Positions 7,134 through 50,417 of a stretch of 64,000 bases of DNA are shown piece after piece (position 1 is the first letter of the stretch; each line of letters opens with the position of its first letter). Under the pieces are notes generated by a model that worked only from the letters and a program-made list of their open reading frames with translations, was not told the origin of the DNA and did not search any database. The translations under genes were made by a program, and so were the position numbers. Source of the DNA: Verrucomicrobiales bacterium (lineage in GTDB: Bacteria; Verrucomicrobiota; Verrucomicrobiia; Verrucomicrobiales; DEV007); the NCBI GenBank assembly GCA_029213195.1, contig JARGNI010000017.1, forward strand, positions 1-64,000. The letters run 5' to 3'.

Positions 7134-8561
7134 CTAGTAGCGGTAAAGCTCGGGCTTGTAGGGGCCCTCGACAGGCACGCTGATGTAGTCCGCCTGCTCG
7201 GGAGTGAGAGCGGTCAGCTTGGCGCCGATCTTTTCGAGATGAAGACGAGCGACCTCTTCGTCGAGATGCTTCGGAAGCACGTAGACACCAGGAGCGTAGA
7301 CGTCCTTGTTCTTCCAGAGATCGATCTGAGCGAGCGTCTGGTTGGTGAACGAGCAGGACATCACGAAGCTGGGGTGACCGGTCGCGCAACCAAGGTTGCT
7401 GAGACGGCCTTCCGCGAGCATGAAGATCTGGTTTCCACCGGGGACCGTGTAGCGATCGACCTGGGGCTTGATGTTTTCCTTGGTCACGCCCTCAGCCGTG
7501 TTGAGCTTGGCGACCTGGATCTCGTTGTCGAAGTGACCGATGTTACAAACGATGGCCTGGTCCTTCATGTTGAGCATGTGCTCGAGACGGATGATGTCCT
7601 TGTTCCCGGTCGTGGTCACGTAGATGTCAGCCCAGCCAAGAGTGTCTTCGACAGGGAGCACGCGGTAGCCTTCCATGGCTGCCTGGAGCGCGCAGATGGG
7701 ATCGATCTCGGTCACGACGACCTGGGCGCCAAAACCACGGAGGGTCTGGGCACAGCCTTTACCGACATCACCGTATCCGCAGACGACGGCGACTTTTCCG
7801 GCGATCATCACGTCGGTGGCACGCTTGATGCCGTCGACGAGCGACTCGCGGCAACCGTAGAGGTTGTCGAACTTGGACTTGGTCACGGAGTCGTTCACGT
7901 TGATCGCGGGAACACGAAGCTTCTCAGCCTCAGCCATCTGGTAGAGACGATGGACACCGGTGGTGGTTTCCTCGGAAACGCCCTTCCAGTCCTTCATGTA
8001 GTTCGTCCACTTGATGGGATCCTGACCGTGGATGCGACGAAGCAGGTTCTTGATCACCTCTTCCTCTTCGCTCTCGCTTTCGGAATCGATGAAGGACGTG
8101 TCGCCCTCTTCGAGCTCAGCGCCTTTGTGAATGAGAAGAGTCGCGTCACCACCGTCGTCGACGATCATCTGCGGCCCTTTGCCATCCGGCCAGGTCAGAG
8201 CGGCCTCGGTGCAGTCCCAGTATTCTTCCAGAGTCTCGCCCTTCCAGGCAAAGACAGGCACTCCGGCAGCGGCGATCGCAGCGGCAGCGTGGTCCTGGGT
8301 CGAGAAGATGTTGCAGGAGCACCAGCGAACATCGGCTCCGAGTTCGACGAGGGTCTCGATGAGAACCGCCGTCTGAATCGTCATGTGGAGCGATCCCATG
8401 ACGCGGACACCGTCGAGGGGCTTGTCCGCCGCATACTTGGCGCGTGTCTGCATGAGACCCGGCATTTCCTCCTGGGCCACTTCAATTTCTTTCCGTCCGA
8501 AGTCGGCCAGACTCATGTCGGCGACTTTGTAGTCTTCTTTGATCGCTGTTTCTACGCTCAT
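7134..8561 (-). CDS. ahcY: Adenosylhomocysteinase
   Basis: Hydrolyses S-adenosylhomocysteine to adenosine and homocysteine, which removes the inhibitory product of methyltransferases and regenerates methionine. At 475 residues it has the length of the long bacterial form. The NAD-binding loop reads [18 protein letters not shown], preceded by the conserved [13 protein letters not shown], and the C-terminus ends PYKPELYRY, typical of the family. The N-terminal segment [16 protein letters not shown] is also diagnostic. It starts 43 bp after the metK stop on the same strand, so the two genes most likely form one operon. Two hairpins follow the stop codon. Confidence 0.97.
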
Positions 8562-8604
8562 GTTGTTCTCTTTTTTGAAAGGTTTCGTTTAGGTTCCGGA
8601 GGGC

Positions 8605-9810
8605 TTACGAACAAGCGCTCTTGAGGTCTTCAACTTTATCCGTTTTCTCCCAGGTGAGGGCATCGGATGCGTCCTCGCGACCGAAGTGACCGTAGTTGGT
8701 GGTCTGCGTGTAGATCGGACGCAAGAGGTCAAGATCGCGGATGAAGTCAGCCGGCTTGAAAGAAAAGACGTCCTGCACGGCAGAAACGATCTTCGCTTCA
8801 TCGACGTTGTTGGTGCCGAAGGTGTCGACGTGGACGGAAACGGGATCAGGGAATCCGATGGCATAAGCGAGCTGGAGTTCGCAACGGTCAGCAAGTCCGG
8901 CAGCGACGACGTTCTTGGCGACGTAGCGACACATGTAAGCTGCAGAGCGGTCGACCTTGCTGGGGTCCTTTCCGGAGAAAGCACCACCACCATGACGTCC
9001 CATTCCCCCGTAGGTATCGACGATAATCTTTCGACCGGTCAATCCGCAGTCCCCTTCCGGTCCACCAATGATGAAGAGTCCGGTGGGATTGATGTGATAC
9101 TTGGTGTCCTCAGTGAGAAGATCCGTAGGAAGCGTCTTCTCGATGAGTTCCGCCTTGAGAATGTCACGAATCTCGGAAGTCGTGATCTCGGCGGCGTGCA
9201 TCGTGGAGACGACGACCGCGGTGATGCGATGAGGCTTGCCATCGACATACTCGACGGAAACCTGGGTCTTGGAATCCGGACGAAGCCAGGTCTGGGAGCG
9301 ATCCTTGCGAAGCTTGGTGATATTCTCACCGAGGCGGTGACTGTAGGCGATCGGCACCGGCATGAGCTCGGGCGTCTCGTTGCAGGCGTAGCCAAACATG
9401 ATGCCCTGGTCGCCGGCCCCCTGCTCTTCGGTCTCCTTGTCGGCCGCGGCGGCGGCATCGACTCCCTGCGCGATATCCGGGCTCTGCTGACCGAGCAGAT
9501 TCATGAAGAAGAAATTCTGCGCATCGAACTTACAGGTGTAGCTGTAGTCGGTGCCCTTGGCGTAATCGCTGTCGTAGTTGATCTCGATCAGCGCATCCTT
9601 AACCACTTTTTCGTAGTCGAAGTCTGCCGCGGTGGTGATTTCGCCGCCCAGAATGACCGCGTTGTCCTTCACCATAGTCTCGCAAGCGACACGGCTACCG
9701 GTATCCTGCTGAAAACAGGCGTCGAGGACGGAATCGGAGATGGTGTCGCACACTTTATCGGGGTGACCTTCAGTGACGGACTCGGATGAGAAGATGAATG
9801 AGTTTGCCAT
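8605..9810 (-). CDS. metK: S-adenosylmethionine synthetase
   Basis: Makes S-adenosylmethionine from methionine and ATP. The 401-residue product shows [16 protein letters not shown] at the N-terminus, the ATP-loop [12 protein letters not shown], and the phosphate-binding [19 protein letters not shown]. Length and ends match the family. It is the first gene of metK-ahcY. Only 47 bp separate its start codon from that of the divergent ArsR-methyltransferase gene, so there is no room for a SAM riboswitch. Regulation by the divergent protein is the natural inference. Confidence 0.97.
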
Positions 9811-14054: not shown

Positions 14055-16274
14055 ATGATAAAACATCCCATCGTGAACAAGTTGGCCGCTGTGACCCTGG
14101 CTCTCGTTTTCGCCTCTGTCTCCTATGTGCAGGCAGAGATGAGAACCTGGACCTCCGCAGACGGAAAAACCCTCGAAGCTGAATTCGCCGGATCCTCTGG
14201 CGCGGGCGCCGCCGCCGTGGTGAAGCTGAAACTCGCCGATGGCAGCATCGTGAATTACCCGGTTGCCAAGCTGAGCGAAGCAGATCGACTCTTTGTGAAG
14301 GGGAACCTCCCGACCGATCCCGCCGCCCTCGCTGCCGAGATCGACAAGCTTGTCCTCAACAAGCTCAAAGAGAGCTACTACGGGCTCCGCGACGAGTTGG
14401 CCGCACTTCCTCAGAACACCGCCCTTTCCAATGCGGAAAAGCTGAAGCGGAAAGAAGAAATCGAGCGCGAGATGCAAATGTGCATTCCCAACGAAGCCAG
14501 CTCGGACAACCAGTTTCTCCGCCGGATCTACCTCGACATCGCAGGTCGGATTCCCACTTTCGAGGAGGCCGAGTCCTTCCTCAACAACCGCAGCGCTTCG
14601 AAGCGGGCCGATCTCATCAACGAGCTTCTCGACTCCCCTGCTTTTGCGATGCGGATGTACAACTACTACTCCGACCTCTTTCGGATTCGCGATGGAGTGA
14701 CGATGATGGGCAACGGCGACCTCAAGGCCGACCCATACATCGAGTATATCAAGGAATCGATCCAGAAAGACAAGCCCTACGACGAGATGGTCCGAGAGCT
14801 TCTCAACGCGAATGGCCAGATTTGGGAAAATCCTGCTGCTGGCTACATCCTGGCCGATTCAGGAATGCGTCTTTGCAACCTCTCCAATACCTTCACCATC
14901 TTCATGGGCACGGAGATCACCTGTGCGCAGTGTCACGATCACCCCTTCGAGGAAGTCTACCAGATGGACTTCTATAAGATGGCCTCCTTTATGGGAGAAA
15001 CCGAAACGCGTGCTCGTGGTGGCAACTCCATGATGATGATGGGTGGAAATAACAATTACCGCCAAGAGGTCTCCCGGATGTCCAAGATTCTCAAGGACGC
15101 TGGAAAGCTTCGCGAAAACGAAAACGAGGATCGCAACCTTCGCCAGTGGCTCGGAACGAAGAGCATCGCCGTCCACGACGATGGCTCCAACGCAGTGACT
15201 CTCCCCCACGACTACAAGTACGACGACGGCGAGCCCAACATGAAGGTGCAGCCTGCCACCTACTTTGGAGACAAGATGAACGTGAGCGAATTTGATTCCC
15301 CACGTCATGCTTTCGCCGAGTGGGTCGTCTCTCCCGGAAATCCTCGTTTCACCATCAACGCCGTGAACCGGTTCTGGAAGATCGCCTTCGGACTCGCCCA
15401 GATCGAGCCCGTCTACAACATCCCCGGTCACCTCGATGGCCAGGCACAGAACTACGAGCTCCTGACCTTTCTCGAGGAAATGTTCAAGGACCTCGACTAC
15501 AGCGTGAAAGACTTCTTCCGCGTCGTCTACAACACGAGAGCCTATCAGAGAGAAGCCGAGACCATGTCTCCCTCCCTCACCCAAGTCGACAAGGGAACCT
15601 ACCACTTCCCCGGTCCCGTTCTTCGCCGGATGTCTGCAGAGCAGCTCTGGGATTCCTTCGTCACCCTGACGACCCCGGATCCGGAAGGCGTCACCCGCAG
15701 CGGAGCCGACGTCTACAAGGAGTGGATGAATACCGACACCTCCCAGTTCAAGACCGCCGATGAGATCATGGCCTACAAGGCACAGTGGAACAAGATCGGT
15801 CAGCTCACGAAATACGACGGAGGTCCGGTCTCAAGAGCGGATTCGATCGACGGCGTGCAAATGTTCCGCGCTTCCGAGCTTCGCCAGCCCATGCCCCCAT
15901 CCCACTTCCTGCGGATGTTCGGTCAGTCTGACAAGCAACTCATCGAGAACCAGTTCACCACGGGATCTTCTCCCCAGGTAATGGCTCTCCTCAACGGAAC
16001 GATCACCAACAAGGTTCTCACCAGCCCCCAAGCTTATCTCATCAAGGAGATTGCCCAGGGTGAAGGGTCCAAGCGCGACAACATCGACAAGATCTTTCTC
16101 AGCGTCCTTTCTCGCTACCCGACGTCCTCGGAGAAATCCGCGGCCCAGTCCGGTATGCGGGCCAAGACCGACCGCGACATGAGCGAGAAAGAAAAACTTG
16201 CCGCTGAAGCAAAAGCCATCGGCAACGTGATCTGGGCACTCGTCAACACCAGAGAATTCATGTTCGTCCAGTAA
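14055..16274 (+). CDS. DUF1549/DUF1553 secreted protein with SHD1-like N-terminus and CXXCH motif
   Basis: A 739-residue exported protein with signal peptide ending SYVQA. Next comes an SHD1-like module (MRTWTSADGKTLEAEF to PVAKLSEADRLFV). The DUF1549 part begins NQFLRRIYLDIAGRIPTFEEA and contains TCAQCHDHPFEEVYQMDFY, with a CXXCH motif at residues 290-294. The DUF1553 part includes FTINAVNRFWKIAFG and RRMSAEQLWDSF. The family is abundant in Planctomycetota and Verrucomicrobiota, and its biochemical role is unproven. The CXXCH motif suggests haem. The DUF1501 partner starts 40 bp later, and a close relative lies at 48300-50417. Confidence 0.9.
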   Translation: MIKHPIVNKLAAVTLALVFASVSYVQAEMRTWTSADGKTLEAEFAGSSGAGAAAVVKLKLADGSIVNYPVAKLSEADRLFVKGNLPTDPAALAAEIDKLVLNKLKESYYGLRDELAALPQNTALSNAEKLKRKEEIEREMQMCIPNEASSDNQFLRRIYLDIAGRIPTFEEAESFLNNRSASKRADLINELLDSPAFAMRMYNYYSDLFRIRDGVTMMGNGDLKADPYIEYIKESIQKDKPYDEMVRELLNANGQIWENPAAGYILADSGMRLCNLSNTFTIFMGTEITCAQCHDHPFEEVYQMDFYKMASFMGETETRARGGNSMMMMGGNNNYRQEVSRMSKILKDAGKLRENENEDRNLRQWLGTKSIAVHDDGSNAVTLPHDYKYDDGEPNMKVQPATYFGDKMNVSEFDSPRHAFAEWVVSPGNPRFTINAVNRFWKIAFGLAQIEPVYNIPGHLDGQAQNYELLTFLEEMFKDLDYSVKDFFRVVYNTRAYQREAETMSPSLTQVDKGTYHFPGPVLRRMSAEQLWDSFVTLTTPDPEGVTRSGADVYKEWMNTDTSQFKTADEIMAYKAQWNKIGQLTKYDGGPVSRADSIDGVQMFRASELRQPMPPSHFLRMFGQSDKQLIENQFTTGSSPQVMALLNGTITNKVLTSPQAYLIKEIAQGEGSKRDNIDKIFLSVLSRYPTSSEKSAAQSGMRAKTDRDMSEKEKLAAEAKAIGNVIWALVNTREFMFVQ

Positions 16275-16314
16275 TATACCAAACGTAACCAAACTTTACC
16301 TCCCCACCATCCTA

Positions 16315-17637
16315 ATGAAAGACCAACTAAAGAACCTCGACCAGCTGAGCCGCCGTCAGTTTGTGGCTCGTACGGCCAAGACTGCACTTGGCGTCAGCAT
16401 CGTTCCTCTCGCCAACGGACTGCAAACCGTCCGTGCCGCCGGAGGAGGAAAAGCCGAACATTGTATTTTCTTCTACATGTCCGGTGGAATGACTCACATC
16501 GACACCTTCGACCCCAAGCCAGGGACCGAAACAGGTGGAACAACCAAAGGGATCTCCACTGGCGTTCCCGGTGTCGAGCTCGCCGAGTTCATGCCGAAAC
16601 TGGCTCAGCGTTTCAAGGATATCGCCGTGGTTCGCTCGATGACCCAGAAAACGGGAGACCACCGAGGTGGATCTTACTGGATGCGCACCAGCTATCAGCC
16701 CCGCGCCACCATCATCCACCCCTCGATGGGCCCCTGGGCACAGACTCTTCTCGGAAAGATGCACCCCACGCTTCCGGATTCGGTAGTCATCGGTGGCGGC
16801 GGAAACCACCCTGGTGCCGGATTCTTCGGACCGGCCCTCGCTCCGCTTCCCATCGGCGACCCTGACAAGGGAGTCCAGAACTCGAAGCCTTACTCCGGTG
16901 TCGATGACAATCTCTTCGAGAAACGAATCGACCTGATGAACACTTTCGACGAATCCTTCCGTCGCAAGTTCAAGACCGACGAGGTCTCCGCTTACACCCA
17001 ATTCTACGATGAGACGCTCAATCTCATGAAGAGTGAGGATCTCGATACCTTCGACCTTTCCAAGGAAGAAGGCTATCAGGAGAAAGTCGCTCGCTACGGG
17101 AACACGCGTGTCGGAAAAGGCGCGATGCTCGCGAAGCGTCTTGTCAGTTCCGGTGTTCGTTTTGTCGAAGTTTCCTCGGGAGGCTGGGACATGCACAACG
17201 ATCTCTGGAACGCGATCCCCAATACCGGTGGATCGCTCGACATGGCACTTGCCTCTCTCATCGACGACCTGAAAGCCGAAGGGCTCTTCGAGAAGACTCT
17301 CATCGTCCTCGGAACCGAGTTCGGCCGTACTCCGCGGATCAATGCCAATGGCGGACGTGACCACCACCCACGGGTCTTCTCGACCATGTTCGCAGGTGGC
17401 GGTATCTCCGGCGGACAAGCCTACGGAGAATCCGACAAGCTGGGTATCGCGGTCAAAGAGAACCCTGTCACACCGGGTGAATTCAACGCCACGATCGCTC
17501 ACGCAATGGGCCTCGATCTCAACAAGATCGTCTACGCACCTTCGGGTCGTCCATTCCTCGTTGCCGGTCACACTCGCGATCCCAAGACCGACGAGATCGT
17601 CACCGAACATCACCCGATCATGGAACTCTTCTCCTGA
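16315..17637 (+). CDS. DUF1501 exported protein with twin-arginine-type leader
   Basis: A 440-residue protein. The leader LSRRQFVARTAKTALGVSIV resembles a twin-arginine signal. The body shows FFYMSGGMTHIDTFDPKPGT, FKDIAVVRSMTQKTGDHRG, SSGGWDMHNDLWN and LGTEFGRTPRINANGGRDHH, a sulfatase-like fold pattern with possible metal ligands. DUF1501 genes regularly follow DUF1549/1553 genes, as here, and the pair probably works together outside the cytoplasm. The function is not established. A terminator follows 29 bp after the stop codon. Confidence 0.9.
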   Translation: MKDQLKNLDQLSRRQFVARTAKTALGVSIVPLANGLQTVRAAGGGKAEHCIFFYMSGGMTHIDTFDPKPGTETGGTTKGISTGVPGVELAEFMPKLAQRFKDIAVVRSMTQKTGDHRGGSYWMRTSYQPRATIIHPSMGPWAQTLLGKMHPTLPDSVVIGGGGNHPGAGFFGPALAPLPIGDPDKGVQNSKPYSGVDDNLFEKRIDLMNTFDESFRRKFKTDEVSAYTQFYDETLNLMKSEDLDTFDLSKEEGYQEKVARYGNTRVGKGAMLAKRLVSSGVRFVEVSSGGWDMHNDLWNAIPNTGGSLDMALASLIDDLKAEGLFEKTLIVLGTEFGRTPRINANGGRDHHPRVFSTMFAGGGISGGQAYGESDKLGIAVKENPVTPGEFNATIAHAMGLDLNKIVYAPSGRPFLVAGHTRDPKTDEIVTEHHPIMELFS

Positions 17638-29286: not shown

Positions 29287-30051
29287 TTAAAGTGCCTTCT
29301 TGTCGGCAACACGCTTTCCACGGAGGGAATAGATTTCCTCCTTGGTTCGCAATTGCTCCAGCGCATTAAGAGTGGCCTTCACCACGTTGGCCTGATTGTT
29401 CGAACCGAGTGACTTGGCAAGAACATCCTTGATACCGGCTGCCTCGACAACCGCGCGAACTCCACCACCAGCGATGAGCCCGGTTCCGGGAGAAGCAGGA
29501 CGCAGCAGAACCCGTCCACCTCCGTGCTCACCCACTACTGGGTGAGGGATCGTGTTCTCGGTAATGTTGACGGGAACCATCTGGCGCTTGGAAGACTCGG
29601 ACGCTTTCTTGATACACTCCGAAACCTCCTGGGCTTTCCCGAATCCAAAGCCAACCTTGCCTTCGCGATCTCCAGTGACGACGAGCGCACTGAAAGAGAA
29701 GCGACGACCTCCTTTGACGACCTTGGCACAACGATTGATGTGAACGACTTTCTCAAAGGTGTTCTCAACCTCTTCCCGTTCGGAAGCAGGTGCGGACTGC
29801 CGGAGGATTTCCTCAGCTTTCTTCAGCTTCTCGGACTTCTCCTCGGGCTCGGGAGCAGGGGCCTCCGACTCGGTCGCCTCGGGAGCGGTCTCCGCAGGAG
29901 ACGCTGCCTCTTCGGCAGGTGCCTCTTCGGCCGGCGCTTCCTCAGCAGCAGGGGCCGCAGCCTCTTCACTGGCTTTCGCTTCTTCCGGAGCTGCGGCCTC
30001 TGGGGCTACCTCTTCTTCCGGAGATTCTTCCTTTGCAGTTTCGTCACTCAT
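29287..30051 (-). CDS. rpsE: 30S ribosomal protein S5 with long acidic N-terminal tail
   Basis: Body protein of the 30S subunit needed for decoding accuracy. The S5 core starts near residue 99 ([20 protein letters not shown]) and includes [23 protein letters not shown]-type motifs. The first 96 residues are an Ala/Glu/Pro tail with repeats such as [15 protein letters not shown]. Total length is 254 against about 166 in E. coli. The junction is in one frame with no sign of error. Gap to rplR is 13 bp. Confidence 0.95.
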
Positions 30052-34518: not shown

Positions 34519-35247
34519 TTACTTGCCGTATTTCTCTTCGTGGAGCGCCTTGGCTTTCTCGATCCAACCATCGCGCTCAATCCTTCCTTTAAACGAAAGA
34601 AGATCGCCAAACTCGCTGACGTTCTTTTCCGTCCATGCAGCGATCTGCTCAAATTTATAGATTCCAATGGAATGGAGCTTCTCCTCCAACTCGGGACCTA
34701 CACCGCTGATTTCCTTGAGATCGTCAACTTCGGAGGGGGCGGAGTCATAAACCATTCCAAGGGCTTCGTCAACCCTGCCCTTGTCGTCGGAGTCAGTTTT
34801 TGGCGCTGCCTTCTCTTCCTTCTCAGGCTTGGCCTTCGACTCGGAGGCCTTGGACTTGGATGCCTTGCTGGAACTCTTCGCCGAGACATTCGCCTTGGTG
34901 TCCTTTTCGGCAATCTCGTCATCGCTGAGAATGACCGTTAGATGACTGGTGCGCTTGCGAATCGAAGACGCAGATCCGCGAGCACGTGCCTTGAATCGTT
35001 TGAAGGTGGGACCCTCTCCAACAACGGCGCTCTTCACGTAGAGGCCATCGAGTGGCAATTCAAAGTTGTTCTCCGCATCGGCAAGAGCGGCCTTCATCGT
35101 CTTGGAAAAGAGATCAGCTCCCTTACGAGGAGTGAAGTTCAGAATATCCAGCGCATCAGATACTGGAAGCCCCTGAATCTCTCTCGCGACATCTCTGGCC
35201 TTACGGGCCGAAATCCGGGCGAACTTGTAGGTAGATTTCACATCCAT
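34519..35247 (-). CDS. rplV: 50S ribosomal protein L22 fused to a C-terminal helix-hairpin-helix domain
   Basis: L22 lines the nascent-peptide tunnel. Residues 1-110 are a complete L22 (YKFARISARKARDVAREIQG, then SASSIRKRTSHLTVIL). A Lys/Ser/Glu linker follows (111-175). Residues 176-242 form a second domain, DLKEISGVGPELEEKLHSIG ending FKGRIERDGWIEKAKAL, a helix-hairpin-helix module also known at the ends of some L21 and NuoE proteins. Total 242 residues against about 110-115 in typical L22. The reading frame is continuous and the next gene follows after 25 bp. Confidence 0.94.
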   Translation of the reverse strand: MDVKSTYKFARISARKARDVAREIQGLPVSDALDILNFTPRKGADLFSKTMKAALADAENNFELPLDGLYVKSAVVGEGPTFKRFKARARGSASSIRKRTSHLTVILSDDEIAEKDTKANVSAKSSSKASKSKASESKAKPEKEEKAAPKTDSDDKGRVDEALGMVYDSAPSEVDDLKEISGVGPELEEKLHSIGIYKFEQIAAWTEKNVSEFGDLLSFKGRIERDGWIEKAKALHEEKYGK

Positions 35248-35267: not shown

Positions 35268-36059
35268 TTACAAAGTGGGTTGGTTGGGAAGAAGTTGAAC
35301 CTGGTCGCCAACAGCGACTTCAAGTGCGGAGGAAAGGCGGTCCTGAAGAACGGCACCGGAAATGGAATCTCGAACATCAACGACCATTGCCGAGTAGATC
35401 GGCTGGTCCTTTTGGAGAACCGCGATAGGAGTTCCGACACGAAGTCCGCTGTTTTTTCCTGCGTCGATAATGATGAGCCCGATCTCCGGATCGAGACTGA
35501 CAATTTCCGAAGGCTGCAAGTCACCGAGCATCGGGGCATCGCCCTCTTTCTCCGAGAGCGGAACCAAGGCATCGGCAGCCTTGTCGATGGCTGCCATGGC
35601 CTTTGCCTTCTTCGACTCATCGAGAGATGGGGTCGAGGCGACAAATTGAAGATACGACTCGCTGAGCTCGCGAATCACGGAGCTACGACGCTCCAACTCC
35701 TGCTCGGCGATGTCGAGATCGCGAACCGCCTTGAGCAGACGCTGCTGAAGGCTGTTCTCATCCTGGGTGAAGAGGTCGACCCCGAAAGCCTGCAGCTTGA
35801 GCTCAGTCTCTCGTGCCCCTGCGAGCTGCTCCTCGCTGACCTTGACAGCCGAGGCGAGTTTATCGACGAGAGCTTTTCGTTGCGCCTCGCTGCGAACGAG
35901 GTCTTCTCGCAACTTCTGGGTCTCTGCCTGGGACATCGCCAAGGCAGCTTTCAACTCCCTCTCCTGGATCGAATCCTGAGCAACCCCACCCGACAACCCA
36001 GCTGTCCATGTCGCGATCGCGACAAGGAGAACAGAGAAGACTGGAAGGTGACAGCTCAT
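35268..36059 (-). CDS. Unknown secreted coiled-coil protein inserted between rpsS and rplV
   Basis: No family recognised with certainty. The 263-residue product from the ATG at 36059 has a signal peptide (VFSVLLVAIATWTAGLSGG), then a long helical region (about 30-150) rich in Glu, Gln, Lys and Leu that should form coiled coil (LREDLVRSEAQRKALVDKLA). The C-terminal 80 residues look like a small beta-barrel: VSLDPEIGLIIIDAGKNSGL, then RVGTPIAVL and VAVGDQVQLLP, vaguely like MreC or FlgT C-termini. It starts 19 bp after rpsS and ends 20 bp before rplV, so it is cotranscribed with ribosomal protein genes although its product should leave the cytoplasm. This order is not that of the standard S10 operon. 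Confidence 0.85.
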   Translation of the reverse strand: MSCHLPVFSVLLVAIATWTAGLSGGVAQDSIQERELKAALAMSQAETQKLREDLVRSEAQRKALVDKLASAVKVSEEQLAGARETELKLQAFGVDLFTQDENSLQQRLLKAVRDLDIAEQELERRSSVIRELSESYLQFVASTPSLDESKKAKAMAAIDKAADALVPLSEKEGDAPMLGDLQPSEIVSLDPEIGLIIIDAGKNSGLRVGTPIAVLQKDQPIYSAMVVDVRDSISGAVLQDRLSSALEVAVGDQVQLLPNQPTL

Positions 36060-36078: not shown

Positions 36079-36357
36079 TTAGGCTTTGATCTTGGGGTTG
36101 TGGCCACTGTGACCGCCGAACTTCCGAGTAGGAGAGAATTCGCCGAGCTTGTGCCCGACCATGTTCTCTGTCACGAAAACGGAGGTGAACTCTTTCCCAT
36201 TGTGAACGAGAAAGGTGTGCCCAACGAAGTCGGGAGTAATCATGGATCGACGAGACCATGTCTTGATCGGGCGCTTCTGCCCCGACTCATTCATGTTGTC
36301 GATCTTGATCAGCAACTTCTGATCAATGAAGGGTCCTTTTTTGAGTGAACGTCCCAT
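36079..36357 (-). CDS. rpsS: 30S ribosomal protein S19
   Basis: Head protein of the 30S subunit near the A site. The 92 residues start [20 protein letters not shown] and include [20 protein letters not shown] and [17 protein letters not shown]. Length is standard. It is separated from rplV by the extra secreted protein gene. Confidence 0.97.
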
Positions 36358-46981: not shown

Positions 46982-48244
46982 CTACGAGAAGAAAGGCATG
47001 ATCGGCTCACCGCCGTTGGCGACAAAGAACGGGCGACCGTTCGGAGCGAAGATCCGCTTCTCCAGGGGCAGTCCGAGTGCGGTTGCGATCGTGGCGCTGA
47101 AATCCTGTGGAGTTACAGGGTCTTCCTTCACCGAAATCGCCTTGTCGTCCGTTTCGCCATAGACTTGTCCTCCCTGGATACCGCCACCAGCGAGCATCGC
47201 GGAGAAACATCTTGGGTGGTGATCACGACCTCCACGGGCGTTGATCTTCGGGGTACGACCAAATTCCGTAGTCAGAACAATGAGAGTCTCATCGAAGAGA
47301 CCCTCGGCCTTGAGATCATCGATCAGGGTGGCGATTCCCTTGGAGAATCCATTGATCTTCCCGGGACCACGATTCCAGAGATCGCCGTGCATGTCCCAAC
47401 CACCGTTGGTCACCCGGACAAATCGAACACCAGTCTTTACGAGACGCTTTGCGAGAAGCAATCCCTGGCCGAATCCGTTTCCGTAGGCATCCCGCTTCTC
47501 CTTCTTCTCCTTGGAGAGGTCGAAGACATCGAGGTCTTTTCCTTTGAGGAAATCGAGAGTATTGTCGTAGAACTGGGAGTAGGCCTGCACGTCTTCGGTC
47601 TGATACTTGTCGAGAAAGGACTGGTTGAATCCTTCCAGAGCAGCGAGACGCTCGTCCATTCGGGGTTTCTTCACGGGAGCCTTGGAGTTCGGCAGTCCCT
47701 TGCTGGGATCCCCAATCGGCAGCGGCGCGTAGCTCGCACCGAGGAATCCGGATCCCGGGCCTCCTCCGCCGACATAGATCGTGTCCGGAAGTTGCGGGTG
47801 CATTTTCCCGAGGGCTTTCTGCGCCCAGCCCCCCATGTTGGGGTGGCGGATCGCCGGGGTCTCCTGGTATCCCGTCTGCATCCAGTAGGAAGCACCTCCG
47901 TGAGCACCAGTCTTCTGCGTCAGAGAACGAACCACTGCGATGTCCTTGAACCGCTTCGCGAGATCCGGCATGTATTCACTCAGCTCGATCCCGGCCACGC
48001 CTGTGGAAACGGTGCCCGTTTGTCCCTGCGTCTCGGCACCCGGCTTGGGATCGAAGGTATCGAGGTGGGTCATGCCGCCCCCCATGTAGATGTAGATGAC
48101 GTGCTTCGCCTTTCCTGCCGTGGTCGTCGCCGCCATGGCTTCGTCCATACTGGGCATCAGTGAAAGGCCAAACGCAGCGGCTGCGGTCTTTTCGGCAAAA
48201 TGTCTGCGAGAAAGCGGGTCGAGGCTGAGGAGTTCTTTTTTCAT
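46982..48244 (-). CDS. DUF1501 exported protein with twin-arginine-type leader
   Basis: A 420-residue relative of the protein at 16315-17637. The leader is LSRRHFAEKTAAAAFGLSLM. The body repeats the same signatures: YIYMGGGMTHLDTFDPKPGA, FKDIAVVRSLTQKTGAHGGA, TNGGWDMHGDLWN and LTTEFGRTPKINARGGRDHH. It lies 55 bp downstream of a DUF1549/1553 gene on the same strand, reproducing the two-gene module of the first copy. Function is unproven. Confidence 0.9.
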   Translation of the reverse strand: MKKELLSLDPLSRRHFAEKTAAAAFGLSLMPSMDEAMAATTTAGKAKHVIYIYMGGGMTHLDTFDPKPGAETQGQTGTVSTGVAGIELSEYMPDLAKRFKDIAVVRSLTQKTGAHGGASYWMQTGYQETPAIRHPNMGGWAQKALGKMHPQLPDTIYVGGGGPGSGFLGASYAPLPIGDPSKGLPNSKAPVKKPRMDERLAALEGFNQSFLDKYQTEDVQAYSQFYDNTLDFLKGKDLDVFDLSKEKKEKRDAYGNGFGQGLLLAKRLVKTGVRFVRVTNGGWDMHGDLWNRGPGKINGFSKGIATLIDDLKAEGLFDETLIVLTTEFGRTPKINARGGRDHHPRCFSAMLAGGGIQGGQVYGETDDKAISVKEDPVTPQDFSATIATALGLPLEKRIFAPNGRPFFVANGGEPIMPFFS

Positions 48245-48299
48245 GGAATCAAAGTGGTATAACGGCGTGGTATGGAAAATGTTACGAGGAATTGAGAAA

Positions 48300-50417
48300 C
48301 TACTGGATGAACATGAACTCGTGCGAATTCAAAAGCGCCCAGATGAGGTCGGAGTAGTCGGCAGCCGAGCCCTGTCCCCCGCGAACGAGGGATTCGGCAT
48401 AGTCACGATCCTGGGGAGCTGGCCGGCGACTGAGAATACTCAGGAAAACGACATCGATTCCCTCGTCATGACTGTCCTCGGCTTGAGCTGCCTGCACCAC
48501 GGATCTCGATTTGGCGGTGAGGATCTGGTTGGTCATGCTCCCGTTCAGCAAGAGCATGACCTGAGGGATCGTCCCATCCGTGTTGCTGTTCTCGATGAAT
48601 TTCTTATCGGACTGTCCAAACGCATAGAGGAAGCTACCGACACCATTTGGCAGGCGCATCTCGGAAGCGCGAATCATGACTGGCCCCTGCGCTTTTTTCC
48701 CCGATTCCGTCATCATCACGGCCGGATTCCCCAGGTTGTTGAAACGCCCGCGCAGTCTCTCCGCCTGGGCAAAATCGATCTTGCTCCAATCAGTGGCCAT
48801 GATCTCCTTGTAGGGCTCGAGGACACGACGTTGTCGGCTTGAGGCTTCAGGTTTGGCCACGGACATCGCGACGAAGGAATCCCAGAGTTGTTCCGCGCTC
48901 ATCCGGCGCAGCACCGGGGCGGGAAAGTGAAATTCTCCCTTGTCGATCATGTCCAGGGTCGGCGAAGCATGACACGCCTCTCGCTGATACGTCTGGGTCG
49001 AGTAGAGAATGGTAAGAAAGTCCTTCACGCTGTAGTCGACCTCTTTCATGAGCGACTCGAGGAACTTGAGTAGTTCGTAGTTCTGTGCCTGGCCATCGAG
49101 GTGCCCGGGGATGTTGTAGACCGGCTCGATCTGGGCAATGCCGAAAACGTGTTTCCAGAGACGGTTGACGACGTTGACGGTGAATCGAGGATTCTTTTCC
49201 GAAGTTGCCCAATCGGCGAATGCTTCGCGAGGCGTGCCGTATTTTTCGAGATCGATGATGTCCCCGAAGTATGCCGCAGGCGAGACCTTGCCGTTGGGCT
49301 CTCCATCGTCATACTGGTAGTCGAAAGGAAGTCGAATCTGATTCTCCGCCCCATCTCCGATATACATGGCGTAGGCATCAAGGAGAGAATTCACATCGTT
49401 CGCGTTCTTCTCCGCTTTCTTGGCCTGCTGCGAGAATTTCTTCTTCGCGGCGTTGATGCTGGCCATCTTCTCTTTTCCTGGGGTCTTCTTGAAATCCAGG
49501 TTTCCGAAGAAGGCCGCCATGCGATAGAAGTCCATCTGGTAGACATCCTCGAAGGGGTGATCGTGACACTGCGCACAGGTGATTTCCGTACCAAGAAACG
49601 TCGTGAAGGTGTTCGACAAGTTGCAGAGTTCCATCCCGTAATCGGTCAGCAGATACCCTGTCGCTGGATTCTCCCAGAGGTAGCCCCGAGCCTGCAGCAT
49701 CTCGGTCACGAACTCATTCCAGGGCCGGTCGTTCCGAACCTGGTCCTTGACCCAGTCCACATAGGCTCCGGACTTCAGGTTGTTGAAACCTCCCATGCTG
49801 ATCCCATCCCGGATTCGGAGCAGGTCACTGTAGTAGTTGAAGAAATGACTGACGAAGGCCTCCGATTGGATGAGCTGGTTGATCAGGACCGCCCGCTTGT
49901 TCTTGTTCGGATTCCGGAGAAAATCGCGGGCCTCTTCGTAGGTGGGAATCCGCCCGGCGATATCGAGATAGATTCGACGAAGAAACTGCTCGTCCGTCAT
50001 CGGCGCGGTCGGATGCGTCATCTTCTCCATGTGGGCGAGACGAGCAAGCTGCTTGTTCCGCTCAGCGGAATCGAGCGCCTTGTTGGCCAGCACGGCAGCG
50101 CGCTCCTGCTTGATCTCAAGATTCGCTTCCTTAAGTCGCTCCCACACCATCTGGTCGATCTGGCGAGCGGCGGTGCGACGATCGATCGGAGCATTTTCCC
50201 GGACATAGCCGCGGTCTTTTTCACTCAGCTTGGTCACAGGAAACCGAACCTCCTGCCCGTTCTTCATCTGCAAGACAACGATTTCCTGCTGGAAGCCGAC
50301 CAGCTTCGCTTCGACTTCGCGTCCCTGGGTATCGGTCCAGGTGCGCATATCTTCCGCTTGAAGGGCGGAAGTGAGAAATACCAACAGGAGGAGAGTGGAG
50401 AGAGCAAACCGAGCCAT
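48300..50417 (-). CDS. DUF1549/DUF1553 secreted protein with SHD1-like N-terminus and CXXCH motif
   Basis: A 705-residue relative of the protein at 14055-16274. Signal peptide ALSTLLLLVFLTSALQA, then an SHD1-like module (MRTWTDTQGREVEAKLVGFQ), the DUF1549 part (EQFLRRIYLDIAGRIPTYEE, with CAQCHDHPFEDVYQMDFYRM, CXXCH at residues 281-285) and the DUF1553 part (FTVNVVNRLWKHVFG, RRMSAEQLWDSFVAM). It is the first gene of the pair with DUF1501. Unlike the first copy it has no sigma factor or FecR gene beside it. Confidence 0.9.
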   Translation of the reverse strand: MARFALSTLLLLVFLTSALQAEDMRTWTDTQGREVEAKLVGFQQEIVVLQMKNGQEVRFPVTKLSEKDRGYVRENAPIDRRTAARQIDQMVWERLKEANLEIKQERAAVLANKALDSAERNKQLARLAHMEKMTHPTAPMTDEQFLRRIYLDIAGRIPTYEEARDFLRNPNKNKRAVLINQLIQSEAFVSHFFNYYSDLLRIRDGISMGGFNNLKSGAYVDWVKDQVRNDRPWNEFVTEMLQARGYLWENPATGYLLTDYGMELCNLSNTFTTFLGTEITCAQCHDHPFEDVYQMDFYRMAAFFGNLDFKKTPGKEKMASINAAKKKFSQQAKKAEKNANDVNSLLDAYAMYIGDGAENQIRLPFDYQYDDGEPNGKVSPAAYFGDIIDLEKYGTPREAFADWATSEKNPRFTVNVVNRLWKHVFGIAQIEPVYNIPGHLDGQAQNYELLKFLESLMKEVDYSVKDFLTILYSTQTYQREACHASPTLDMIDKGEFHFPAPVLRRMSAEQLWDSFVAMSVAKPEASSRQRRVLEPYKEIMATDWSKIDFAQAERLRGRFNNLGNPAVMMTESGKKAQGPVMIRASEMRLPNGVGSFLYAFGQSDKKFIENSNTDGTIPQVMLLLNGSMTNQILTAKSRSVVQAAQAEDSHDEGIDVVFLSILSRRPAPQDRDYAESLVRGGQGSAADYSDLIWALLNSHEFMFIQ

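Follow-up and report, generated by a model that had tools for sequence, protein, structure and literature searches.

The S10 operon analysed here contains, directly upstream of rplV, an additional gene (in the following called gene X), whose product combines a membrane-targeting N-terminus with a predicted small barrel at the C-terminus. A gene of this type keeps the same position throughout the order and in much of the phylum, which we take to be Verrucomicrobiota in the wide sense of GTDB. The gene string of the S10 operon ranks with the most conserved ones known in bacteria, and it is unusual for a protein of the exported type to be retained there in much of a phylum.

In the window, i.e. 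the whole analysed stretch of 64,000 nt, the minus strand carries rplB, rpsS, X, rplV, rpsC and rplP in this order (Table 1). The earlier note on this DNA had placed X on the same strand as its two neighbours with gaps of 19 and 20 bp, and the coordinates confirm this. An alternative GTG start at position 36107 would give a protein of 279 aa that overlaps rpsS, and it is the ATG start that agrees with the length of the N-terminus in related proteins. The plus strand is equally open over nearly the same bases, with a frame of 269 aa (open frames were allowed to start at ATG, GTG or TTG, or to run from stop to stop), and therefore the case for X as a gene rests on its conservation and not on its length. 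X gave nothing above the cut-off in Pfam and nothing of note among the NCBIfam models and the sequences of solved structures. A scan of the window with Rfam found one tRNA and nothing else.

Table 1. Coordinates of gene X, its two neighbours and the parts of its product in the window
Feature	Position	Strand	Remarks
Gene X	35268..36059	minus	263 aa (protein P0002); start codon ATG at 36059, last base of the stop codon at 35268; signal-like N-terminus followed by helices and a barrel
rpsS (uS19), upstream of X	36079..36357	minus	19 bp gap; PF00203, E 1.5e-37
rplV (uL22), downstream of X	34519..35247	minus	20 bp gap; PF00237, E 9.9e-32
X, residues 1-28	35976..36059	minus	signal-peptide-like, ending ...GGVAQ; by inspection and hydropathy
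X, residues 29-91	35787..35975	minus	long predicted helix, coiled-coil-like; AlphaFold model
X, residues 101-142	35634..35759	minus	second long predicted helix; AlphaFold model
X, residues 184-256	35292..35510	minus	six-strand small barrel, FlgT_C/TsaP-like; AlphaFold model with fold and profile matches

Some other features of the window deserve mention in their own right. The product of rplV is extended at its C-terminus by about 130 aa, with a helix-hairpin-helix match at 34612-34725 (PF14520, E 2.8e-5, under the cut-off) and with NCBIfam matches, likewise under the cut-off, to the extensions that other proteins carry. Long rplV matches were found in the genus of the window (loci L003-L026 and L031), and neither in L027 nor in the other families that were read. 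In the product of rpsE (uS5, 29287-30051, minus strand) the conserved part is preceded by a long N-terminal extension in which Ala, Glu and Pro are abundant. A gene pair, presumably for proteins of the DUF1549/DUF1501 type, is present in two copies of opposite orientation at 14055-17637 (plus strand) and 46982-50417 (minus strand).

Within the order, matches to P0002 were found in 51 of the 56 genomes searched (the own genome included), representing all 14 genera. All 42 genomes with at least 90% completeness and at most 5% contamination possess such a match, and the five genomes where it was not found are 52-84% complete. X lies directly before rplV and on the same strand in all 48 loci that reach rplV, and rpsS precedes X in each of the 46 loci whose stretch extends that far. 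These counts come from 49 of the 51 genomes with X and include neither G054 nor, in G046, the locus at rplV; the stretch of locus L028 ends before rplV. X proteins share 37-57% identity with P0002 inside the genus and 21-31% elsewhere in the order, and the corresponding values for rpsS, compared with that of the window, are 86-97% and 67-80%. The dN/dS ratios of X ranged from 0.09 to 0.41 across 32 pairs of related genes, which are not independent of each other and which remained from 69 candidate pairs after 37 had been dropped as being near saturation (pS below 0.65 was required). X is under purifying selection, and the ratios together with the alignment rule out a spurious frame. The earlier note had named two observations that would speak against its proposal, namely a gene that is absent or unlinked in close relatives and a frame without coding conservation. 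Neither was seen, since X is linked in every locus of the order that reaches rplV and is conserved as a protein.

The linkage extends well beyond the order. A profile built from 37 X proteins matched 131 of the 288 genomes of the phylum, a number that includes unlinked paralogues, misses divergent X proteins and is thus not a census of X. We located rpsS in 148 of 151 genomes of the phylum (69 of 71 and 79 of 80 in two sets) and hand-picked 60 of these 148 to cover the families (L052-L111). The gene rplV follows rpsS in 42 of the 60 stretches, and a barrel protein of the X type with 112-301 aa fills the gap in 27 of these 42 junctions, a fraction that is not a prevalence because of the way the genomes were chosen; in the other 15 junctions rpsS and rplV are intact without X between them. 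No rplV follows rpsS within the stretch in the remaining 18 genomes. Four of these stretches (L077, L093, L105 and L111) end at contig ends, and for these four the case rests on the rplV side. At rplV itself, X was found directly before this gene in 15 of the 18 genomes, followed by rplV, rpsC and rplP, and no rpsS was found in the stretch read. X thus remains linked to rplV and not to rpsS, rplV being the steadier partner across the phylum. Presence and order in other genomes of the phylum, which the earlier note had recommended to check, support its observation. Altogether, X precedes rplV in 31 of the 38 family labels that were read, although these labels were chosen partly by earlier matches. 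As a side observation, in family f26 (L128 and L129) neither rpsS nor X lies before rplV, and L129 has a different frame of 168 aa upstream of rplV, which by inspection is signal-bearing.

To cover other phyla, we used named genomes that were chosen by their 16S pattern. Of 47 such genomes searched, rplV was located in 45 (in two, no rplV was found), and all 45 stretches were read. Thirty-three of them come from other phyla, mainly Planctomycetota, plus Chlamydiota, Omnitrophota and one member of the Auribacterota, and 32 of the 33 can be judged, since the stretch of L283 ends 56 nt upstream of L22. X was found before rplV in none of these 32 genomes, where the search covered the stretch at rplV. 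The outgroup locus L284 has a gap of 441 nt before rplV, inside which there is only a frame of 66 aa. The other 12 of the 45 genomes are labelled Verrucomicrobiota or one of its classes, and X precedes rplV in five of them and is absent from this place in seven. The five bear the labels Lentisphaerae/Lentisphaeria, Kiritimatiellae or Opitutia. The entries G234 and G347 are one and the same genome.

Pairwise distances of the barrel and of L22 are correlated (r 0.82 over 95 loci, reached in none of 2000 permutations), as would be expected if both were inherited together, and frequent horizontal jumps of X are not supported by this result. X diverges faster than rplV, with mean p-distances of 0.68 and 0.43. 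A maximum likelihood tree was calculated from 81 barrels, comprising 51 linked ones (thinned by identity from the 95) and 30 unlinked ones. In this tree 28 of the 30 unlinked paralogues group together with an ultrafast support of 92 and with no linked X among them. The other two, from G221 and G070 of one genus, fall with linked X, their nearest neighbor being L119 of the same family label. These two barrels are X orthologues that have moved to non-ribosomal surroundings (L290:2652-3350 and L291:1969-2694, plus strand). G221 has its own rplV (L126) without X before it, and a frame that begins three bases after the relocated X in L291 looks like a type IV prepilin by inspection. The two moved copies and the genomes without X indicate that the function of X does not need the operon. 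At a threshold of E 0.001, no barrel of the X kind was found in five of 49 genomes searched.

Further barrel proteins are encoded in the genome of the window, two of them in tandem on contig 7 and another, weaker one on contig 104. The tandem paralogues (L301:7147-7938 and 7988-9061, minus strand) are membrane-anchored coiled-coil/barrel proteins, and G044 and G046 have such a pair as well. The copies in the own genome lie near tsaD and a gene for a CtpA-type protease (neighbours named by inspection). The tandem paralogues provided no hint of a function.

The structure prediction that had been proposed in the earlier note yielded a model with long helices and a C-terminal barrel (mean pLDDT 84.9). 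The barrel itself reaches pLDDT values of 86-97 by blocks of ten residues, shorter helices are also present, and the pTM of 0.43 means that the mutual placing of helices and barrel is undefined. Residues 106-117 form twelve consecutive invariant columns in the ten sequences of alignment A1. The description of X as a coiled-coil protein in the earlier note holds for P0002 with its long helices but not for the family, since eleven proteins of 112-127 aa consist of signal and barrel only (family labels f7, f9, f13, f14, f16 and f17). One of these short forms was modelled, and it showed a signal and a barrel with pLDDT values of 93-98. The suggested signal peptide is supported as a signal-like N-terminus by inspection and hydropathy of P0002. 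Of 73 X proteins, 72 have a hydrophobic stretch (a mean of at least 1.5 over 15 residues) close to their start, and in the remaining one it lies upstream of the start chosen by the script. Among 22 further linked frames, 21 have such a stretch before the barrel, and the remaining one is cut by a contig end. By inspection, some N-termini resemble cleaved signals ending in AQ or QA and others resemble uncleaved anchors. The conserved core in the proteins read is the membrane-targeting N-terminus and the barrel, whereas the helices are variable.

The earlier note had rightly recognized a small C-terminal barrel; its family, however, is not wholly unknown, as the barrel resembles FlgT_C and TsaP. 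Among the matches listed, the closest solved fold is an LPHT-ring chain (8z5n, Z 11.5, rmsd 2.3, 77 aligned). The barrel also has the fold of the C-terminal barrel of FlgT (3w1e, Z 10.8, rmsd 2.3, 74 aligned). However, subunits of the F1- and V-ATPases come about as close with their N-terminal barrels (Z about 10), so that the fold match to FlgT is not specific. For the short form, Foldseek placed MreC first (E 6.4e-3) and FlgT high, with none listed below E 0.001, while the ATPase barrels lead among the matches listed by VIA-align. When the phylum-wide barrel profile A3 was compared with solved structures, TsaP was the best match (3jc8, E 3e-6, distributed over several weak segments of which the best has an i-Evalue of 0.02), and further matches were 6ve2, listed as LysM domain-containing protein (E 0.041), and MreC (E 0.16). 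FlgT_C (PF16538) matched six of 37 X members weakly (best E 0.0089). In P0002 itself neither PF16538 nor LysM was listed up to E 10, with the HMMER filters on in the case of PF16538. The MreC domain PF04085 was listed neither for P0002 nor among the 25 of 69 families listed for the 37 members. Matches of the helical part to coiled-coil families of Pfam, some of which beat FlgT_C (MscS_porin, E 2.5e-5, in three of 37 members), were taken as coiled-coil likeness.

These similarities leave clear differences to the known proteins. FlgT belongs to a periplasmic ring, and it shares the small barrel fold with X, but it is a flagellar basal-body protein whereas X lies in a ribosomal operon. MreC, with a membrane-near N-terminus, a coiled coil and small barrels, has a similar layout; X has only one barrel, its short forms are without the coiled coil, and the matches are too weak to assign X to this family. 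TsaP is periplasmic. Its C-terminal domain is related in sequence to that of X, but TsaP has a LysM-like domain, whereas P0002 gave no LysM match and has helices before the barrel, and the short forms have only the signal there. Through its LysM-like domain, TsaP is reported to contribute to anchoring the secretin of the pilus to peptidoglycan (PMC9239104).

The stop of X and the beginning of the L22 match are 3 to 130 nt apart, which gives no suggestion of tight translational coupling. A scan for promoters and terminators gave counts within the range of shuffled sequences (3 against a mean of 1.8 with sd 1.3, and 5 against 5.5), and one weak promoter-like match lies inside the gap between X and rplV. 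The codon usage value of X is 0.722, compared with 0.651-0.816 for ribosomal and translation genes and a median of 0.717 for 49 other frames. Since 21 of these 49 are at or above X, its codon usage is not distinctive and is uninformative with regard to high expression.

The membrane-targeting N-terminus and the barrel core with its resemblance to TsaP and FlgT suggest a periplasmic adaptor, and from the gene order alone the synthesis of X should follow that of the ribosomal proteins. We therefore lean, at slightly less than even confidence, towards the reading that X is a periplasmic or inner-membrane-anchored adaptor which is presumably exported and co-transcribed with its neighbours and whose dose would follow ribosome synthesis and hence growth. 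X would be exported to the envelope by the Sec system. The FlgT_C/TsaP-type barrel would be its working part, and the helical spacer, the length of which varies between lineages, might hold the barrel off the membrane. The gene would have entered the S10 operon directly before rplV, at the latest in the common ancestor of the Verrucomicrobiota in the GTDB sense, and would mostly have been inherited there since. Being translated from the operon message, X would be supplied in step with ribosome synthesis, and the cell would thus make one component of its envelope in proportion to growth. The earlier note had stated that X must be made with ribosomal proteins and had suggested a link between translation and envelope growth; the two moved copies and the 15 of 42 junctions without X speak against such a link being required. 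In a far-reaching version of the idea, the supply of an envelope assembly factor would be hard-wired to ribosome production in Verrucomicrobiota: X would be made from the ribosomal operon so that the rate of ribosome synthesis sets the amount of a periplasmic scaffold, and with it envelope growth or secretion capacity. We regard this version as unlikely. That X could be a ribosomal protein or a ribosome factor was set aside on account of its signal-like N-terminus and its divergence, which is faster than that of rplV.

It is also possible, though on the doubtful side, that X is a predicted envelope protein with no functional tie to translation. Its gene would have arrived in the operon a single time and would have been retained there since a disruption of the ribosomal operon is costly, with the site giving only strong and steady expression. 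The faster divergence and the ordinary codon usage of X would fit such a history, as would the two orthologues that moved away and yet were kept and the 15 junctions where rpsS and rplV are intact without X. What speaks against it is that X adjoins rplV in most of the genomes without rpsS there, despite a break close by, but a single inherited upstream break would also explain this. The TsaP match, the best among solved structures, raises the further question of whether X might assist a secretin-based machine, either a type IV pilus or type II secretion, in the manner of TsaP, with its barrel contacting the secretin ring. The place of FlgT in a periplasmic ring (the LPHT ring is matched here) and the prepilin-like frame behind one relocated X point in the same direction. 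A secretin (PF00263) is present in all 32 X-bearing genomes searched, including one with a moved X and one not read at rplV, and it is missing in two genomes without X. However, secretins also occur in 15 of the 17 genomes that have no X at rplV, so that the co-occurrence is uninformative; P0002 has no LysM match, and the usual neighbours of X are ribosomal genes and not pilus genes. Such an accessory role seems rather improbable to us. The steady place before rplV with mostly short gaps and the export-like N-terminus would likewise suit a regulatory gene, whose translation and export at the membrane would control the translation of rplV and the later genes, either as a secretion monitor or as a tether of the message. 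We consider this very improbable, since the distance to the L22 match is variable, X ends in a predicted folded barrel and not in a free arrest peptide, and lineages without X keep rplV.

Export-related genes among ribosomal-protein genes are not new as such, since secY lies in the spc operon and yidC beside rpmH. These genes, however, encode the translocation machinery of bacteria at large, whereas X is a barrel protein that was found before rplV only in Verrucomicrobiota in the present data. The barrel type was already known as well; what appears to be new is an orthologous exported-type member that is fixed before rplV across much of a phylum. No earlier description of such a fixed member was found among the matches listed in the open-licence literature, and the parts of PMC3444138 and PMC2474590 that were consulted do not describe gene X.

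If the link between X and the operon is only historical, X would still mark the phylum and would serve well as an example of a passenger gene that became fixed in a ribosomal operon. It is an open question how cells adjust the growth of their envelope to the production of ribosomes, and a gene that physically joins both would make this question testable if a tractable host carries X. A candidate host is Verrucomicrobium spinosum, for which a transposon screen and targeted mutagenesis have been published (PMC12283558).
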